Assembly (NCBI RefSeq): GCF_013391105.1
Contig: NZ_CP058335.1
Coordinates: 1,302,001 to 1,366,000 of the forward strand
Length of the DNA: 64,000 nt
Source: Natronomonas salina
Lineage (GTDB): Archaea; Halobacteriota; Halobacteria; Halobacteriales; Haloarculaceae
Direction: 5' to 3'
Shown: positions 19,043 through 30,861 of the stretch, piece by piece
Numbering within the stretch: the first letter of the stretch is position 1
Layout of the letters: every line of letters starts with the position of its first letter
The notes under the pieces: model-generated
Databases searched by the model: none
Told to the model about the DNA's origin: nothing
The model's input: only the letters and a program-made list of their open reading frames with translations
Translations under genes and position numbers: made by a program

Positions 19043-21034
19043 CTACGGCGTCGTGGCGGTCGTCCAGAGTTGCGTCTGGTCGACGGCGCCCACCTGTTCT
19101 CGGTCGTCGATGGCTCGCACCTCGACGTGATAGCTCCCTCCGTCGGAGAGCTCGAAGCCACCGTAGACCGGGATGTACTCGGGACTCGCGGTGTAGGACC
19201 CGGTCGCATCCAGTTCGATCGTCCGGGTGACGATCGACGCTCCTTCGGCATCGGTGACCGAGAGTTCGACGGCGCGGAGCAGCCCGCTCGGCGCGGTCAC
19301 CTCCAGCGCGCCGATCTCGACGCGGTCCTCGGCGGGGTTCCAGCGCGGGTTCTCGAACCTGGTGATCCGCGGCGAGTCAGCGCCGAACCGATCGACGACC
19401 GACGTGACTAACGACCGACTCCCCTGTCCCAGCCGCAGTACCATCTCCGACCGAGCGACGACCACGACGAGTGCGACTGCAGTGAGAGCCAGCAGCACGT
19501 ACAGCCAGGCGGGTAGGGAGAGTGGAAGCTCCGTGATGCCCGAAGTGCTCGGCCCTGTAGCGCCGATGGTCGTCTCGGTCGTCGCCGTGGCCCCGTAGTC
19601 GTCTTCGACCGTCACACCGACGGTCTCGCCCGTCTCGAAGGCGCCAGTAACCGTCTCGCCGGTCGCCGTCGAGCCATCGGGGAGCGTCCACGTCACGGTC
19701 GCGTTGCCGTACTCGTTCGTGACGTTCGCCCGCAGCATCGTCAGATCGCCATCCGTCTCGTTCCGCGATTGGTCGATGGCTACGGACGGCGGGTCGTTGA
19801 CGAGGATCTCCTGGGTGGCGTCGTCGGAGCGCCCGAACGCATCCGTGACGGTCAGCGTGACGTTCCTGGTACCGGCCTCCACGAACGACGTCCGGATGTT
19901 GTCGTCCACGACCGTGTGACCGTCAGGGAGCGTCCACTCGTAGGTTACGTCGCTCTCCGCTAACACGGTGAAGACGCTGAAGCCCTGCGTGCGAGCCTCC
20001 AGTAGCACAGTGTCGTCGGTCTCCTCGATGACCCGCGTCGGCAGTAACTGCCAGCCCTCGGCCGTATGTCGACCGATCCGAGTGTCGACGGAATTCGTCG
20101 CCGGGAACGCGTCCCGATCGACGCGGATGCGGACCAGTGCGGGGCTCTCACGGAGTTCCCGCGGTGGCGTTATCTCGACAATCGTCGCAGGTCGGTGCTG
20201 TGTGGTAATGCTATCGGCCGTCGAGACGTAGGATTGGGTCCCTGTCAAACGGATGGGCTCGTGTTGCTGGGCGACGAACTCGGTTCCGTGGACCTCGAGG
20301 CCATCGTCCTCTACGGTCGCGTCGAGGCGTCCCGGATCTATCGTGGCGCGAGGGGTCGTGGCTGGGCCGTCCTCGGGCAGCGAGCCGAGTTCTCGAACGG
20401 TCGTATTTGCGTAGTCTCCCTCGCCTTCGAAGACGACCTCAACACCAGCGGTCCGGTTCTGTACCTCTGAGTCACCTGGAGCCGGCGCGGGCGTCGGAGT
20501 ACCGCCGTCATCAGTACTCTCTCCGTTACCGGCTTCCCAATCAGGGGTATCCTCTTCCTCACCAGACCCGCCGCTGGAGGAGTCTTCGTCGGCACTTCGT
20601 ACGCCGATGGATACCGTGCCCGAATCAGGCGCCTCGCCGTACGTATGGATCGAGAACCCGACCGAGAGGGTCTCACCCGGCTGGAGCTCGCGCCAGTCGC
20701 CTTGTTCCAGGTCGGCTTTGGGATCGTCGCTCTCGTAGGCGGTGACGCTCCCACCGACGTCTGCCTCAACCCACACCTCGATCGGCTCGTCTGCGGTCGA
20801 GGTGATCTCGAAGACGTTGTGCGCCCGAGTCACGGCATCCTTGTTCAGCCGATCGAAGTCGACTCTAAGCTCGCCGTCCTCGACAGTGGCGTACTTGCCA
20901 TTGGGGCCATCGTGTGGAGCGAGTTCGACGGCAGAGTCAATCTGGTCACTCCCGCTCGTCGTCATCGCCACCGTCGGCACTGCCAGCGTGGCAGCGACGA
21001 TGAGGATTATTACGGCGAAGAGTCGGGGGCGCAT
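19043..21034 (-). CDS. Exported PKD/PGF-pre-PGF membrane-anchored protein
   Basis: A 663-residue protein. It has a Sec signal (MRPRLFAVIILIVAATLAVPTVAM), an N-terminal domain like DUF1102/TasA-type proteins (ELRVDFDRLNKDAVTRAHNVFEITSTADEPIEVWVEAD), an acidic Ser/Gly/Pro linker (about 150-195), a PGF-pre-PGF-like domain (GWQLLPTRVIEETDDTV... FSVFTVLAE) and two PKD-like beta domains. A membrane helix (LPAWLYVLLALTAVALVVVV) precedes a C-terminal beta-rich domain. It is likely a cell-surface or envelope-anchored adhesin/assembly protein. Its N-terminal relation to the small DUF1102-like protein next door suggests the two act in the same structure. It faces the kinase gene tail to tail. Confidence 0.75.
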   Translation of the reverse strand: MRPRLFAVIILIVAATLAVPTVAMTTSGSDQIDSAVELAPHDGPNGKYATVEDGELRVDFDRLNKDAVTRAHNVFEITSTADEPIEVWVEADVGGSVTAYESDDPKADLEQGDWRELQPGETLSVGFSIHTYGEAPDSGTVSIGVRSADEDSSSGGSGEEEDTPDWEAGNGESTDDGGTPTPAPAPGDSEVQNRTAGVEVVFEGEGDYANTTVRELGSLPEDGPATTPRATIDPGRLDATVEDDGLEVHGTEFVAQQHEPIRLTGTQSYVSTADSITTQHRPATIVEITPPRELRESPALVRIRVDRDAFPATNSVDTRIGRHTAEGWQLLPTRVIEETDDTVLLEARTQGFSVFTVLAESDVTYEWTLPDGHTVVDDNIRTSFVEAGTRNVTLTVTDAFGRSDDATQEILVNDPPSVAIDQSRNETDGDLTMLRANVTNEYGNATVTWTLPDGSTATGETVTGAFETGETVGVTVEDDYGATATTETTIGATGPSTSGITELPLSLPAWLYVLLALTAVALVVVVARSEMVLRLGQGSRSLVTSVVDRFGADSPRITRFENPRWNPAEDRVEIGALEVTAPSGLLRAVELSVTDAEGASIVTRTIELDATGSYTASPEYIPVYGGFELSDGGSYHVEVRAIDDREQVGAVDQTQLWTTATTP

Positions 21035-21339
21035 CGTTGTCAGCTACAAAGGTATAGATTGGCTTTGTATTAGGTTGGCAGAAAGAGTGAACGGTACGCT
21101 TGAGATATCCATTCGAGAGCTGGTAGGCCAGCAAGCTCTGCTTGAAAGCCGACTTTATCGGCCGGCAGCCCGAGAATTCACGAATGATAGAAGAAGCCGG
21201 AATCTGCCAACCCCCTATAAAAACCAACATGACTACTATTCCTCTGATTCTAGTTTAGACGTCACTTTCCCAACCCTTGCGGCTGTCCTAATATCTGTCC
21301 AACCAGCCGTAGTGAAGTAGAAAATATTGCTCTCAGAAT
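21035..21339. other. AT-rich intergenic stretch
   Basis: About 305 bases. A TATA-like CTATAAAA on the plus strand (near 21214) precedes only a nine-codon frame. AT-rich boxes on the minus strand near 21046-21070 probably belong to the gene starting at 21034. No gene is seen. Confidence 0.4.
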
Positions 21340-21843
21340 TCAGTTAGCTCTGAAGGTGACTGTCTGGGTTTGATCGATCGTGGTCCCGCCGCTCGTATCG
21401 ATTTCAATCGATACAGATATTGTACCGCCATGGGCCAGTGTTTGTGAAGAGCCAACAAGGCTAGTGCCACTACTATCTTGGAAGTCAATCACTGTACCGT
21501 CGACATCGCCGTTGCTCAGCACCTGAATATCGTGTTCTGCGCCTGTCGAATCGTTGTTCGTTATCTCGAATACCCCGTCGAATGTCGAGAGAGCATTGTC
21601 GTTCAGATTGCTAAGTTGGATGAATAGCGTATTCGCTCCGTTCGGACTATCATTGTTTGACTCCGTTGAAGCATATTGACTCGTGGGACTCAGAGTCAGT
21701 TCGGCGGAACTGTCATCCGAGAACTGGACCTCCATTGTTCGGTCCGCTTCCACCTGACTGAACGCACCCGAACCCAGCACAGCTCCGCCACCGGCTGCAG
21801 TCGCTCCCAACCCAATCAAGACGTTTCGTCTGTTCATTGACAT
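21340..21843 (-). CDS. DUF1102-like secreted protein with RR signal
   Basis: About 167 residues from the ATG at 21843 (the upstream extension is Arg/Trp-rich and unlikely to be translated). The signal NRRNVLIGLGATAAGGGAVLGSGAFSQVEADR is typical of haloarchaeal DUF1102 and SipW-dependent proteins, in which the AFS-VEADR junction follows the cleavage site. The mature part is Ser/Thr/Asn-rich beta sandwich-like, with an ISVSIEIDTSG strand near the C-terminus. A ribosome-binding site (AGGTGAT) and a TATA box (minus GGTATAC, about 21870-21876) support the start. It is divergent from the DUF7344 regulator and is a candidate fibre or matrix subunit. Confidence 0.75.
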   Translation of the reverse strand: MSMNRRNVLIGLGATAAGGGAVLGSGAFSQVEADRTMEVQFSDDSSAELTLSPTSQYASTESNNDSPNGANTLFIQLSNLNDNALSTFDGVFEITNNDSTGAEHDIQVLSNGDVDGTVIDFQDSSGTSLVGSSQTLAHGGTISVSIEIDTSGGTTIDQTQTVTFRAN

Positions 21844-21911
21844 TGTTGAATCACCTGGTACGCAGTTTGCGTATACCCTCCATCTCCAGCCCATCTCCTT
21901 TGTCTTGACCC

Positions 21912-21949
21912 GCTTGAACCGCTGAAAGCCCGGCTTGAAGCCGCTGAAA
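21912..21949. repeat. Direct repeats in the divergent promoter region
   Basis: GCTTGAACCGCTGAAA (21912-21927) and GCTTGAAGCCGCTGAAA (21933-21949) differ by one inserted base. They lie about 40-75 bases upstream of the TATA box of the DUF1102-like gene and upstream of the divergent DUF7344 gene. They are plausible regulator sites. Confidence 0.5.
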
Positions 21950-22044
21950 CCGTTTATCCACCAAATGGCTTTGGAGTGACTCACCTTTCGATACGATGTA
22001 AACTCGTTCGTCGTTCGTCGTCAATTTGGAGGCAATTGGGGATT

Positions 22045-22617
22045 ATGGCGACTTCTGAAGAGACGACGACCGGAGGGGTGGCATTGCCGAACGAGCAGGA
22101 GGTCCCCCAACAGGGGGAGATCTTCGACCTCCTGAGCAACCATCGACGGCGCTACGCGATTCACTACTGTAAGCGAGAGGAGTGTCCCGTTCAACTGGGC
22201 GACCTCGCCGAACAGGTGGCCGCCTGGGAGTTAGAGAAGGATATCGCCGAAATCGACTCCGCGGAGCGCAAGCGTGTCTACACGTCCCTTCAACAGACCC
22301 ACCTTCCGACACTCGAGGATGCGGGGATGATCACCTTCGAACGTGGCGAGGTGGAGCTGACCGACCGTGTGGAGGAACTCGACGTTTACCTCGACGTCGT
22401 ACCCGGTGACTCCGTACCGTGGGGCGTCTACTACCTCGGACTGTCGGGATTCAGTACCCTCGTCCTCACAGGCCTGTGGGCAGGAATCGTCCCCACGGAA
22501 CCCGTGTCGACGCTCGCCTGGGCGACGATGCTGGTCAGTCTATTCGCCGTATCTGCAGCCGTCCACGTCTACCAGAATCGGAAGTACCGGCTCGGAGAGA
22601 TGGAGACACCCACCTGA
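22045..22617 (+). CDS. DUF7344 winged-helix regulator with two membrane helices
   Basis: A 190-residue protein. The N-terminal DUF7344 winged helix (about 20-115) has EIFDLLSNHRRRYAIHYCK, LGDLAEQVAAWE, ERKRVYTSLQQTHLPTLEDAGMITF and the wing strand VELTD. Two hydrophobic helices (about 128-148 and 152-172) follow with a short cytoplasmic tail. The start ATG at 22045 follows GGAGG (22030). Membrane-tethered DUF7344 proteins are common haloarchaeal transcription regulators without assigned ligands. Its place between divergent secreted-protein genes suggests it controls this cluster. Confidence 0.8.
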   Translation: MATSEETTTGGVALPNEQEVPQQGEIFDLLSNHRRRYAIHYCKREECPVQLGDLAEQVAAWELEKDIAEIDSAERKRVYTSLQQTHLPTLEDAGMITFERGEVELTDRVEELDVYLDVVPGDSVPWGVYYLGLSGFSTLVLTGLWAGIVPTEPVSTLAWATMLVSLFAVSAAVHVYQNRKYRLGEMETPT

Positions 22618-22705
22618 GAGACAGAAACGATGAGACGACCACCGGCCAGCGAGCAGCAATCGGCTGTCGTTGCGGCAGAACAAGATTTCCGGAGGCGGTG
22701 ATACC

Positions 22706-23536
22706 GTGACACCCCAGATGGACAATCGAGGCTCACTGGCAGGACTGACCCGCAGACGCGTCCTTTCAGGAGTCGGGACTCTGCTGGTCGGTGCCGGTGT
22801 ATCCTCTGCGGTCGACACGGTAGCGTTCAGCGCTACCAATGCCTCACGGTCGACGAACGTGAGCGTCGCCGACGATCCCGACGCAATCGTCGGGCTCATG
22901 GTCGCAGACTCCGTCAAGCGGAACAACCAGAACTTCCTCGTCGATATCGAGAACGGGACCGGCTCCCCGGTCGACTTCACCGTCTCGCTCAACGACTGCA
23001 GCCAGGGGACATTGGACGGCCCGAACGGGTCCGGTTGCACGGTCAGTTTCTCACTCTCGCCTGGAGTCTCGACGACCGTCGATATCGAGGCCAGCGTCAA
23101 GGATACGACGATCCCCTTCACCATCACCGGTAGCTCTACCGAATTCGGGTTCGAGGCGACGAGGGAGACCACCGCAGTGTCGGGGAACACCGCCGGCGCG
23201 ATACAGATGAAGAAGCTCGACGGTTTCAATGCGGACATCGGGAACGACGGCTGGACGATCAAGAACGTCGATATTCGCGACAACGACGGGGACGACGACC
23301 TCGATCGCATCGAGTTCGAAATCACGGACAGCTCCGGGACAGTCAGAGCGACCCGGGTCGACGGCTGTGGCTGCAACGGCGGAAGCAAATACGCCCCGAG
23401 CGGTAATCCTTCAGTGCAAATCGTCCCTGACGACTCGAGTTACTCCGTGACTGGCGGCGAAACGTACAAGCTCACGATCATCGCTTACGACGCGGACGGG
23501 AACTCGGCGTTCGCGACGAGGGAGGTCACCACGTAG
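22706..23536 (+). CDS. Secreted TasA/SipW-substrate-like protein
   Basis: A 276-residue protein from the GTG at 22706, chosen because GGAGGCGGTGAT (22691-22702) is a strong ribosome-binding site just upstream. The signal is TRRRVLSGVGTLLVGAGVSSAVDTVAFSATNASRS. The mature part begins STNVSVADDPDAIVGLMVADS, the pattern of haloarchaeal SipW-type secreted proteins, then continues with beta-rich sequence holding a CGC pair (GCGCNGGS) and an Asp-rich stretch (DNDGDDDLDR) that may bind calcium. It follows the DUF7344 gene on the same strand by 88 bases and converges on the signal peptidase gene, its likely processor. Confidence 0.7.
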   Translation: MTPQMDNRGSLAGLTRRRVLSGVGTLLVGAGVSSAVDTVAFSATNASRSTNVSVADDPDAIVGLMVADSVKRNNQNFLVDIENGTGSPVDFTVSLNDCSQGTLDGPNGSGCTVSFSLSPGVSTTVDIEASVKDTTIPFTITGSSTEFGFEATRETTAVSGNTAGAIQMKKLDGFNADIGNDGWTIKNVDIRDNDGDDDLDRIEFEITDSSGTVRATRVDGCGCNGGSKYAPSGNPSVQIVPDDSSYSVTGGETYKLTIIAYDADGNSAFATREVTT

Positions 23537-23554
23537 TCAGCTGCCCCGTCAAGG

Positions 23555-24676
23555 CTACCTGAACCGTCGCTCAAGCCGCACCTTCAGCGGAACGTCGGGA
23601 CCGGGCCGAATCCGTAGATAGCCCGTTCCGAACACCGCGACCGCCAATGTGACGACGAGTGCAGCGACGACGAGGTTCAGCGCGAGCAGCGCCAACCATG
23701 GGTGCACGGAGTGCAACGCCAGCAGGACACTCTGCGGGAGAATCAACAGATAGCGCGATTCACGCACGCGATGAGTGGACGTCCCCGCGGTCTCGGGCGC
23801 CTCGATCTGGACGGTCACCTTGGTGCTGTCGCTGTAGCCGAGGACGGTCCGGTCCGGCTCCACCGTCACGCCGTCATCGAGTGGGTCGGTCACCACCAGC
23901 GTCGGGACGACTCCAGTATAGTGCGTCTCGTAGGTCGCCGTCGCTGTCTCACCGGGGGCGACGACCTGCGGTTCGTCCGAGGGGTCCTCCGTGGCTAGCA
24001 CCTCGATATCGTAGGTGCCGGCGGGGACGACCATCGCGGCCGTCGCCCCCATCGCCACAATGGACGCCGCCAACAACACGATCAGCCAGACGGCGACGAC
24101 GTTCTCGCGGCTACGTGACCGAGAGGTATCACGTCGACCACGCTCGCCGGTGGCGCCGGCGAGCACGAACAGGGCCATCCCGAGGAAGACGAGGATCGTG
24201 CCAGCTCGCTCCTCGCCCAGTGCGCCGAACGGTGCGGCGGCGATATCGCGCACGGTCGTCGCGGCCGTCCCGAGATGCGGGATGGCGACTACCTCGCCGT
24301 TGGCCTGCAGTGCGTGGGCGACGATGGTGTCCTCGGCGACCGGTGGCTCACCTCCGTCCTGGTCGGTGAACGGGTTGGTATCGCCCTTGGTCACGTACCC
24401 GTCGTCGTCCACGTCGACTACGCGATGCGTCGTGAGGCCACCCCCCTGGACGGTCTCGGCCTCGAAGACAACGACGTCGCCTGGCTCCGGGCTCCCCGCC
24501 AGGACCGACGGCACCGCGACGAAGCCGTCACCGGGTTCGAGTGCGGACTCCATGCTCCCGGTCGTCACGTAGCCGAACAGCAGCGGCTGGCCAAGGAACT
24601 GCCCGATAACCAGCAGCGCGACCGCGAGGACGACCGCAACCGTGAGCACCCCGGAGAGCGTCGAGCGAGCAGCCAT
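23555..24676 (-). CDS. Archaeal signal peptidase I (SipW-like)
   Basis: A 373-residue protein. An N-terminal membrane helix is followed by the catalytic Ser41 (TTGSMESALEPGD), His84 in TTHRVVDVD in place of the bacterial Lys, and Asp99 in the YVTKGDTN box, the Ser-His-Asp arrangement of archaeal and ER-type enzymes. It then has extra helices (about 165-185 and 200-230), a beta domain and a C-terminal helix pair that are absent from the housekeeping enzyme. Dedicated peptidases of this form sit beside DUF5305 and TasA-like genes and process SipW-type signals. The start ATG 24676 is preferred to an upstream Met in a basic stretch. It lies 117 bases after the DUF5305 gene on the same strand. Confidence 0.85.
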   Translation of the reverse strand: MAARSTLSGVLTVAVVLAVALLVIGQFLGQPLLFGYVTTGSMESALEPGDGFVAVPSVLAGSPEPGDVVVFEAETVQGGGLTTHRVVDVDDDGYVTKGDTNPFTDQDGGEPPVAEDTIVAHALQANGEVVAIPHLGTAATTVRDIAAAPFGALGEERAGTILVFLGMALFVLAGATGERGRRDTSRSRSRENVVAVWLIVLLAASIVAMGATAAMVVPAGTYDIEVLATEDPSDEPQVVAPGETATATYETHYTGVVPTLVVTDPLDDGVTVEPDRTVLGYSDSTKVTVQIEAPETAGTSTHRVRESRYLLILPQSVLLALHSVHPWLALLALNLVVAALVVTLAVAVFGTGYLRIRPGPDVPLKVRLERRFR

Positions 24677-24793
24677 CGACTTAGCCCTCCGAGGAACCGT
24701 CAGCCAACACGGCTGGAGACGCTTCGACAATCGAATGGAGTGGGAACGGCTGGAGCCGCCTCACCGGCCCATCGGCCCAGTTCGCGCCCACCA

Positions 24794-25819
24794 TCAGATC
24801 TCGAGCCATTCTCCGAACTCGTCGGCGCCTTCGGTATAGTAGTAGACGTCGTCGCCGTCGACGACGCCGTACGTTTCGTAGGTCGTGTCATAGATGACGC
24901 GCTTGTTGGAGTCGATCGCGATGTCGACGAGGTCCTCGAGGGAGTCGATCGTGATGTACTGTTTCTCCGCCTTCGTCGGGATCTCCCCCCGCGAGATCCA
25001 TTCCTCGTATCGGCTACGGGTCAACTCCATCTCGATGCTCTCGAGGTCGAACTCGCGGCGCTGGAGCGCGGCGACGCCGATCGCCAGCAGGAGGAAGCCA
25101 CCACCGAACCCGCCGAACAACAGCGTTCGGCCGAGATTGGGTGACTCGGTCACCTCTCGTGTCACTTCGTCGGTATGCGACTGATTCGCCGTCAGGTCGC
25201 CATCCACCCAGTAGGCCCGGTCGGTGAGGGCGATCGGCGAGACGGCGGCCAGTTCGTCGTCGGCCGACTCCGTCGTATACTCGACCTGGAGGTGTAGTTC
25301 CGTCCGGAACGAGCCGATGCCGCCGATCGCCGAGCGAGTCTCGGCGACATTCCGTCGAACCGCCTGCATGTCGATGGTGGTGTTCATCGTCGCCTCGCCA
25401 TCGGTGACGGTGTCGCTACTGGTCGCGAGGACGCGCTGGCGCTCCCAGAACGGCGCGCCACCGCGTTCGGCGACGTGTCGGAGGACGAGCCGCTGGTCGA
25501 CGGCCACTTCGCGGTCGTCCGGAACCGACGCTGTCACGCCGACTGTCAGGTCGGGGGTTGCGTTGTAGAAGTACGCCGGCCGGTCCCGGAGTGTCGTCCC
25601 CTGCTCGTAGAGCGTGGAGTTCCCCGTTACGACCGCGCTGGTCGCCAGCCCGGTCCCGAACTGCTGTTCATCGACGGGTTCGGTGACCTCGTAGGTGGCT
25701 GGGGAGGCGTAGACCGACCAGGCGCCACCAACCGCGAGGACGCCGATCACGGCGAACCCGACGGCGATGAGGACGCCGTACTGTGCGACGACCCATTTGG
25801 CACGGACGCCGAGCGTCAC
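24794..25819 (-). CDS. DUF5305 membrane protein
   Basis: A 341-residue protein with an N-terminal membrane helix (about 12-38), a beta-rich external domain (about 40-225), a second helix (GRTLLFGGFGGGFLLLAIGVAAL, about 229-251) and a cytoplasmic tail. The tail contains ISRGEIP and a strand-rich motif (ITIDSLEDLVDIAIDSNKRVIYD). This matches DUF5305, regularly found beside archaeal SipW-type signal peptidases. It probably shares a transcript with the peptidase downstream, and an assembly or quality-control role is inferred from that association. Confidence 0.8.
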   Translation of the reverse strand: MTLGVRAKWVVAQYGVLIAVGFAVIGVLAVGGAWSVYASPATYEVTEPVDEQQFGTGLATSAVVTGNSTLYEQGTTLRDRPAYFYNATPDLTVGVTASVPDDREVAVDQRLVLRHVAERGGAPFWERQRVLATSSDTVTDGEATMNTTIDMQAVRRNVAETRSAIGGIGSFRTELHLQVEYTTESADDELAAVSPIALTDRAYWVDGDLTANQSHTDEVTREVTESPNLGRTLLFGGFGGGFLLLAIGVAALQRREFDLESIEMELTRSRYEEWISRGEIPTKAEKQYITIDSLEDLVDIAIDSNKRVIYDTTYETYGVVDGDDVYYYTEGADEFGEWLEI

Positions 25820-25910
25820 GGCTGATCCGTTCGGTCGAGCGGCGGGATCGACATCTGTACCGGCCGTGCCTCGATGAGCGTGGTAACGTTAGTGAGCATG
25901 GATTGGCTGT

Positions 25911-26576
25911 TCAGGCGGTCACGGTCACGTTGCCTTCGGCATCGTACTCGACGATCACGTCGAACAGTGGTCGGAGTGTCGCGACGGTCTGTTGCTCGTG
26001 AGCGATCGAATCCATGTGATAGTGGGCCGTCGCGTGCAGGCGGTTCTGCAGCAGGTGGACGAACCGGAAGGCCCGTTTCGGGGTGACGTACTGCAGGAGT
26101 GCGGTCAGCGAGTGAAAACACACCAGCGGGTCGTTCCCGTCGCCCCATTCGTCGACGGCGCGACTGATGGTCATTCCGAGTCGGGTCAGATCCGAGGGGT
26201 CGGCGACCTCGACGGAGATCGTCGTCGAACCGTCCGGGGTCGCCGCAGTCGTCTCGGAGGGGTATCGGTCGGCGCCACTGACGACGCAGATGTGTTCCGG
26301 TGAGTCGTCGATGGAGTCCCGAATGAGCGCGATCCGTTCGTCAGCCGTCTTCGTGAACGACACGAAGAGCATGTTCCGGTCGGCGACCGGCCACGTATCG
26401 ATGAGGGCTGCACAGACGTGGTCATCAAGCGAGCCCTGCATCGGCCCCAACACGAGGACGTCAGAGGCCTCGCCGAGGGCGGTGATATCACCGGAGTCGA
26501 AGAATGATCGCGTCGCGGATTCCACTCTGGTCCCCCCGAGTGACCCGCCAGCCCCACTGTTCATATTTTCTGGCAT
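25911..26576 (-). CDS. DUF7504-like RecA-fold protein
   Basis: A 221-residue protein resembling the haloarchaeal DUF7504 family, predicted to have a RecA/KaiC-like core. Strand-turn VLVLGPMQGSLDDHV stands where a Walker A would be but lacks GK. Further pieces are NMLFVSFTKTADERI, ICVVSGADR, PLVCFHSLTALLQYV and the C-terminal RPLFDVIVEYD. ATP binding is therefore doubtful. It could be co-transcribed with the DUF5305 gene (91-base gap). A divergent paralogue lies at 26936. Such proteins often neighbour HalOD1 and DUF7344 genes; the role is unknown, with signalling inferred. Confidence 0.65.
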   Translation of the reverse strand: MPENMNSGAGGSLGGTRVESATRSFFDSGDITALGEASDVLVLGPMQGSLDDHVCAALIDTWPVADRNMLFVSFTKTADERIALIRDSIDDSPEHICVVSGADRYPSETTAATPDGSTTISVEVADPSDLTRLGMTISRAVDEWGDGNDPLVCFHSLTALLQYVTPKRAFRFVHLLQNRLHATAHYHMDSIAHEQQTVATLRPLFDVIVEYDAEGNVTVTA

Positions 26577-26935: not shown

Positions 26936-27565
26936 ATGCCTCCATCACAGTCAAGCGACGATTCACCGATCGGGAACTACCTGTATGTCTCACCAACGCT
27001 GCCTGCGACGGACGACTCGTGTTTCGATCGCTTCGAGGCGGTGCGCCCGGCCGAGACACACCTCGTCGTGATCACCCGATCGATCGAGGAGACGCTGGCG
27101 AACTGGCGACGTGTTCACGACGACCCGCCCGCGAACGTCAGCATCGTGAGCGTCGCGGAGGAGACGCGGTCGACGGCAGGCCAAGAGCCCGCGACGGGCA
27201 GCCCGCGAGCCGAGATGGTCTGGCCGGTGTCGCATCCCGGAGACTTGACCGGCATCGAGATCGCCATCACGGAGATACTAACACAGCGGCCGGCAGGCGG
27301 CCAGTTGGTCGTCTGCTTCCAGGCCCTCGATGCCGTGGTACAGTACGCGGCGGTGAAACCCACCTATCGCTTCCTGCACAAACTGACCACGCGGCTCAAG
27401 ACGGCCGACGCGATCGCACACTATCACGTCGCCGACTTCCAACTGGACGGCGATAGTGTCACCAGGATCAGACCGCTATTCGACGGCGTTATCGAGATCG
27501 ACGATGACCTGGCCGTCCAGCAGCCACCCTCGCGCTCCGAAGAGACCACCCCAGTCGATAAATGA
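26936..27565 (+). CDS. DUF7504-like RecA-fold protein, paralogue
   Basis: A 209-residue relative of the divergent gene at 26576. It has the same order of elements: NYLYVSPTLPATDDSCFDRF, HLVVITRSIEETLANWRRV, VSIVSVAEETRS, GGQLVVCFQALDAVVQYAAVKPTYRFLHKLTTRL, and the end motif RPLFDGVIEID. It too lacks GKT/GKS. The pair probably arose by an inverted duplication and shares the regulatory region between them. The start ATG 26936 begins the acidic part; upstream sequence in the frame is not haloarchaeal in composition. Confidence 0.65.
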   Translation: MPPSQSSDDSPIGNYLYVSPTLPATDDSCFDRFEAVRPAETHLVVITRSIEETLANWRRVHDDPPANVSIVSVAEETRSTAGQEPATGSPRAEMVWPVSHPGDLTGIEIAITEILTQRPAGGQLVVCFQALDAVVQYAAVKPTYRFLHKLTTRLKTADAIAHYHVADFQLDGDSVTRIRPLFDGVIEIDDDLAVQQPPSRSEETTPVDK

Positions 27566-30346: not shown

Positions 30347-30682
30347 TCAGTTCTCGACGTCGAAGTACTTCCGAAGCGGGGCGGTCCGTACCGACGTCAC
30401 GGTCGTCGACTCGGCGTCGTAGTCCAGGAGGTCGGCGTCGGCCAGTTTCGGCAGGTGGACGTGATGGAGCGCCGTCGCGATCTCCCGCTCCGAATCCTCC
30501 GGCGTTCCATCGTGGATGCCCTCGGCGACGGCTGCCGCGAGGTCGGCGATCTGTATCGGCCCGTCCCGACCGAACAGCGCCTCGACGGCCAGCCGACGGT
30601 ACTCGTCGGCCAGCACGTCGAGTGCGATATCTGTTGACGGTTCGTCGATGGCGGAGGATCGGGGATAAACTTGGATGTGCAT
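30347..30682 (-). CDS. DUF7344 winged-helix regulator, soluble
   Basis: A 111-residue winged-helix protein with the DUF7344 pattern: ALDVLADEYRRLAVEALFGRDGPIQIADLAAAVAEG, SEREIATALHHVHLPKLADADLLDYD, then the strand TVTSV. It has no membrane helices, unlike the paralogue at 22045. Starting at ATG 30682 (MHIQVYPRSS) removes a Cys/Arg-rich upstream stretch. It is a likely DNA-binding regulator with unknown targets, and it is divergent from trmB-like 30862. Confidence 0.7.
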   Translation of the reverse strand: MHIQVYPRSSAIDEPSTDIALDVLADEYRRLAVEALFGRDGPIQIADLAAAVAEGIHDGTPEDSEREIATALHHVHLPKLADADLLDYDAESTTVTSVRTAPLRKYFDVEN

Positions 30683-30861
30683 GGGATGTCTCGAAGATCG
30701 ACAGCCGGCGGAGCACCGGGGCTGCCGAATCGTTCGTACACCATCCAGTCGCCACGCGTGTATAAGCAACCCGACACTACTGGCGGGGCGACAGTCCCGA
30801 TGTTCCTCGGGGAGTAACAAGTAGTCAGAACCCATTACCGTCGGAACACCCTACCCCCGCT

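Follow-up and report, generated by a model that had tools for sequence, protein, structure and literature searches.

Between positions 19,043 and 26,576 of a 64,000-nucleotide stretch of the Natronomonas salina genome (contig NZ_CP058335.1, positions 1,302,001 to 1,366,000; hereafter the window), an extra-large signal peptidase is encoded beside several membrane and secreted proteins. The question raised by this arrangement is whether the genes build a single surface fibre. We consider it likely that the locus is fimbrial and of the twin-arginine translocation (Tat)-fimbria type, comprising a subunit, a tip, an anchor, a dedicated peptidase and probably a regulator. Loci of this kind are already known as the haloarchaeal Tat-fimbriae ("tafi", 2025), of which the composition here is a variant. 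What we add is a link to a solved pilin structure, a predicted fibre polarity, an exchangeable tip and a promoter element. A first-pass annotation of the window had proposed one surface-fibre system; all of its genes are present where it placed them, and its inference is supported and largely right, the kind of system not being new. Of the two outcomes that it had named as contrary, folds unlike TasA-type sandwiches and absent linkage in other haloarchaea, neither was observed.

The central component is pilin B (21340..21843, minus strand), a TafE homologue with the Tat signal MSMNRRNVLIGLG and the junction GAFSQVEADR. B aligns with the TafE model over its full length (1-175 of 176; E 2.5e-31), at 108.8 bits against a curated NCBIfam cut-off of 155 bits. 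A profile built from 54 B homologues (the A2 profile) matches Protein Data Bank (PDB) entry 9p0a, named 'Pilin', with an E-value of 1.9e-44. The matched stretch of 9p0a has 100% identity with a protein of a Natrinema gari locus (L135) with neighbours like those of the window: DUF7344, anchor, peptidase and DUF5305, with the pilin at the equivalent position. Because of this identity and these shared neighbours, a fibre subunit of the equivalent position has a solved structure. B and 9p0a are homologous, with 46.7% identity over the first 107 amino acids, and diverge in their C-terminal halves. The predicted model of B is a beta-sandwich with a predicted local distance difference test score (pLDDT) of 77. 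Its best Foldseek match in the PDB is weak, namely 7ueg, a Pyrobaculum archaeal bundling pilus (probability 0.96, E 0.024, template modelling (TM) score 0.37, 14% identity). FimG and FimA follow, and TasA is absent among the 50 matches listed. The bundling pilus as top match agrees with the kinship suggested in the first-pass annotation and is not strong by itself.

B shares the junction A-F-S-x3-A-x-R with a second secreted protein, D (22706..23536, plus strand). The two had been paired earlier as small twin-arginine proteins; both do carry a twin-arginine signal followed by F-x4-A-x-R, but D is unlike B beyond that. Residues R5, G26, A27, F28 and R35 are invariant in 54 pilins, and R6 is conserved in at least 90%. 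Across all loci, 101 sequences with Tat signals (mean hydropathy 1.5) have F0 followed by A+5 in 95% and R+7 in 95%, and 33 with Sec-type signals (mean hydropathy 2.7) follow the pattern more loosely (A+5 76%, R+7 73%), in a set chosen with a looser form of the pattern that did not build in the fixed spacing. TasA of Bacillus is cut by SipW with phenylalanine at P2' (PMC10269814), and the residues F29, I32 and F39 serve in its donor strand (PMC9674648). F0 and V+3 match TasA F29 and I32, which suggests the same use as a donor strand. B and D would be exported folded via Tat, and the long signal peptidase encoded nearby would cut them at the junction. The N-terminal strand released in this way, with its phenylalanine and hydrophobic residues at +3, +9 and +11, would then serve as a donor and fill in the beta-sandwich of the following subunit, as happens in TasA fibres.

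The candidate for the base of the fibre is the PKD protein (19043..21034, minus strand), a putative membrane anchor. It has a Sec-type signal, no F-x4-A-x-R, and an N-terminal pilin-like domain without the donor motif, followed by PGF-pre-PGF (E 7e-6, just under the cut-off), PKD (E 4e-12), a transmembrane segment seen by eye, and a C-terminal domain. The resemblance of its N-terminal domain to the small secreted protein, already remarked on from the letters, proved to be homology to B (hhalign 98.8%, E 7.5e-17). A search of solved structures with the anchor domain gave no match, and a viral fold library gave no significant match. The donor motif occurs in 1 of 51 proteins nearer to the anchor domain versus 144 of 183 nearer to B (pilin-type), a difference partly built in, as both profiles include the signal region. 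We infer the following polarity: the base would accept a strand and give none, the shaft would do both, and the tip would give one. The PKD protein, with its acceptor-type domain and membrane segment and no donor strand, would be the base; B, acceptor plus donor, would be the shaft; and D, a donor strand plus immunoglobulin (Ig)/fibronectin type III (Fn3) modules, would be the tip.

D, which has two Ig/Fn3-like domains in its predicted model, is probably a tip protein. It has a Tat signal and the junction AFSATNASR, and shares with the pilins only the signal and the first strand at the mature start; its profile reaches 9p0a at E 2.2e-10 over the first 120 positions only. The model shows tandem Ig/Fn3-like domains (pLDDT 71, predicted TM score (pTM) 0.47) matching, for example, RbmA and NCAM. 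D falls short of TafC, scoring 25.9 bits against a cut-off of 410 and lacking LamG. Its position in other loci is held by proteins with LamG, FG-GAP (just under the cut-off) or bactofilin modules, and the length and C-terminal domain of the gene there vary wildly among relatives; a beta-helix is found in one fimbrial-family protein of Halobellus locus L133. That the signal and start stay constant while the ends are exchanged suggests a tip protein. The opposite assignment, in which D would make up the main shaft and B act as an adaptor, could appeal to the NCBI name 'TafE fimbrial adapter' and to the Tat signal and junction of D. We find it improbable, since the pilin in 9p0a belongs with B rather than D, the variability at D's position is unlike that of a shaft protein, and no promoter element belongs to D, none having been found for it when the window was scanned with the matrix described below.

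The long signal peptidase I (23555..24676, minus strand; 373 amino acids) is, by its Ser/His/Asp set, an archaeal/endoplasmic reticulum (ER)-type enzyme, and it has a long C-terminal membrane extension. The residues S41, H84 and D99 singled out in the first pass are invariant in 20 homologues. The enzyme falls short of the cut-offs of TIGR02228 (E 3.9e-13, 49.6 bits vs 51.85) and of the SipW model NF046067 (E 1e-8, 35.1 bits vs a curated 190), and its profile matches SEC11A/C in the PDB. Used as the sole query of a locus survey, the peptidase retrieved 80 named loci, nearly all haloarchaeal, 60 of which exceed 17 kb and are termed full loci. DUF5305 and fimbrial-family genes are each present in 59 of these 60, DUF7344 in 56 and all three together in 56, so the neighbourhood linkage proposed for these families is kept in 56-59 of the 60. 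The DUF5305 membrane protein (24794..25819, minus strand; E 1.5e-45), which had been noted beside the peptidase, is thus its near-obligate neighbour, and may help the peptidase or assembly. Each of the two has exactly two copies in the 3.75-Mb genome, adjacent both times, and the linkage is therefore not chance. Signal peptidases usually cut many substrates, and the enzyme might be a second, general signal peptidase that happens to lie beside surface genes. This seems very unlikely given that fimbrial-family genes are missing nearby in only one of the 60 full loci and that both genome copies lie within fimbrial clusters. A dedicated fimbrial peptidase is therefore the reading we retain.

The gene set recurs in four close relatives (L087-L090), with a larger protein replacing D, and L088-L090 also retain the gene order of the window. 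The second cluster of the N. salina genome (C1:3306309-3309846, positions 8310-11847 of L007) is smaller and contains DUF5305, two fimbrial-family proteins and the long peptidase, without DUF7344. Three or more consecutive pilin-type genes occur in L133 (5994-9219) and L111 (4265-8666), which suggests multi-subunit or alternative fimbriae. One relative shows an unusual expansion, with 13 TafE-family matches that fall for the most part in a 30-kb stretch (G044, C1:2530060-2559868).

The divergent genes for B and D are separated by a gene for a winged-helix-type DUF7344 protein (22045..22617, plus strand; E 6e-29) with hydrophobic C-terminal segments seen by eye, as the first-pass annotation had described. 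Its position suggests a putative regulator. With about 40 copies in the genome, DUF7344 is the least specific part of the locus; another protein of this type in the window (30347-30835, minus strand) has no membrane part. An accessory DUF7504 protein (25911..26576, minus strand) lies upstream of DUF5305 and the peptidase, in one run with them; its family is present in 11 of the 60 full loci. The protein is divergent from a second DUF7504 protein beside the locus (26936-27565, plus strand), and one of the pair stays beside DUF5305 in close relatives.

The pilin and anchor genes also share an upstream sequence. TACAAAG is 48-fold enriched upstream of B-like genes and forms part of the element TTC-N9-AATACAAAG, and 59 of 74 cases have the spacing of 9 between TTC and AATACAAAG. 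Training on 47 sites, all outside the window, produced a matrix with 93 matches scoring 17 bits or more across 2.3 Mb, and 92 of these precede fimbrial-family genes, the class on which the matrix was trained. Within the window it marks two sites, one of 24.8 bits upstream of B and one of 18.3 bits upstream of the PKD anchor. The anchor site (21063..21083, minus strand) is an exact copy 28 nt before the ATG, the single one in the 3.75-Mb genome, and the pilin site (TTCAAGCGGGTCAAGACAAAG, 21898..21918, minus strand) has one mismatch and lies 54 nt before the start. With up to one mismatch allowed, the window has no site besides these two, shuffled windows gave no site and the genome gave four. 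The two beyond the window, considered as a wider regulon, lie inside reading frames (transposase-like and Fic-like by eye) and were put down to chance. Sixty related genomes contain 18 exact copies, versus 2 for a reversed control. A pilin- or anchor-type gene lies downstream of 11 of the 18 (the window site included), the copy in L185 precedes a fimbrial-type signal protein, and the remaining copies have no assignable gene.

Anchor genes have the element 24-35 nt from their start codon, and pilin genes mostly 49-91 nt away. In archaea, 24-35 nt is where the TATA box of a leaderless mRNA lies, and the element, plainly present as a site, is for this reason most likely an atypical core promoter of a type that the pilin and anchor genes would share. 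A literature search returned no paper pairing its sequence with haloarchaeal TATA boxes. Alternatively, AATACAAAG could mark a binding site for a transcription factor, or a feature of the leader RNA, as TTCAAG repeats 21 bp apart sit just upstream or overlap and the leaders of the twin-arginine genes are conserved. We consider this possible but rather doubtful, because the spacing before anchor genes is that of a TATA box, and we keep to the core promoter.

The TTCAAG direct repeat of the window (TTCAAGCCGGGCTTTCAGCGGTTCAAG, 21913..21939, minus strand), with copies 21 bp apart, is a possible activator site whose second copy overlaps the pilin promoter element; such repeats also occur in relatives of the window, where they may be operators. 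In four Natrialbaceae loci (L095, L118, L124 and L125), GTTCAAG-N6-CTTGAAC inverted repeats lie upstream of pilin genes, 40-60 bp above the element, and form another possible operator. The idea that DUF7344 reads the element was considered and is not supported: no DUF7344 was found near the element in L094, and several Halorubrum loci show the reverse, DUF7344 but no element. An inverted repeat before B, TACGCA-N3-TGCGTA, was dropped as not conserved in sister loci. A scan for sigma-70-type promoters and terminators, a model unsuited to archaea, gave no more than chance.

The haloarchaeal Tat-fimbriae were reportedly described by Galeva et al. (2025, iScience 28:111793; cited in PMC12687288). 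The locus in the window resembles them in the Tat signals on its subunits B and D and in the TafE homologue B. It differs in a tip built as an Ig/Fn3 tandem rather than a LamG-bearing TafC, and in an anchor enlarged by PGF-pre-PGF and PKD. Two relatives above the NCBI TafA/TafE cut-offs (L047 and L048) combine the same long peptidase with TafE, TafA, TafC, DUF7344 and an anchor-type gene, and L048 also has DUF5305. TafA was not found in the window locus, where only a 40-residue signal region matches the TafA model. The SipW/TasA-like label given in the first pass holds in that an archaeal/ER-type peptidase is encoded with putative fibre proteins that have an A-F junction, as in Bacillus TasA/TapA/SipW. 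It does not hold at the level of family: the proteins fall outside the bacterial TasA/camelysin family PF12389 (Peptidase_M73), which has no match in the genome, while a Bacillus subtilis control was found. Bacillus TasA forms a beta-sandwich fibre with an N-terminal donor strand (PMC9674648, PMC10269814) and, unlike the window proteins, has no Tat signal. TapA is proposed to give a donor strand, whereas the window anchor has none. A literature search for DUF1102 returned no papers.

Several points weigh against this account. B scores below the TafE cut-off and its Foldseek scores are weak; neither TafA nor a full TafC is present at the locus; and the model of D has a pTM of only 0.47. The promoter element is lacking in 16 of the 60 full loci and in the second genome cluster, and both the donor-motif comparison and the promoter matrix carry the built-in component described above. 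The scores below the curated TafE, TafA and TafC cut-offs, the weak fold scores and the missing TafA gene would also fit a surface matrix, or an S-layer-associated set of secreted proteins with its own peptidase, in which no fibre is polymerised. We judge this to have a small chance of being correct. The solved pilin stems from an equivalent locus that likewise has no match of TafA length, and the conserved donor-strand-like N-terminus is missing in the anchor only. A polymerised Tat-type fimbria is the reading we prefer.

Taken jointly, the parts describe a system that we propose tentatively, rating it at somewhat below an even chance. A dedicated core promoter, TTC-N9-AATACAAAG, would sit at the TATA position and almost nowhere else in the genome. 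The fibres would have fixed polarity: the membrane anchor at the base would only accept a strand, the pilins would both donate and accept, and the exchangeable tip would only donate. One special peptidase would free the donor strands from Tat- and Sec-exported members. The locus-wide evidence ties Tat-fimbriae to a specific peptidase, to DUF5305 and to an anchor, and so places a DUF family and a peptidase subfamily in a concrete setting. The polarity of the fibre is predicted from the letters of its genes, and the promoter signature offers a way to find such loci and to test their regulation. If true, a core promoter so specific to one organelle would be of interest for archaeal transcription.

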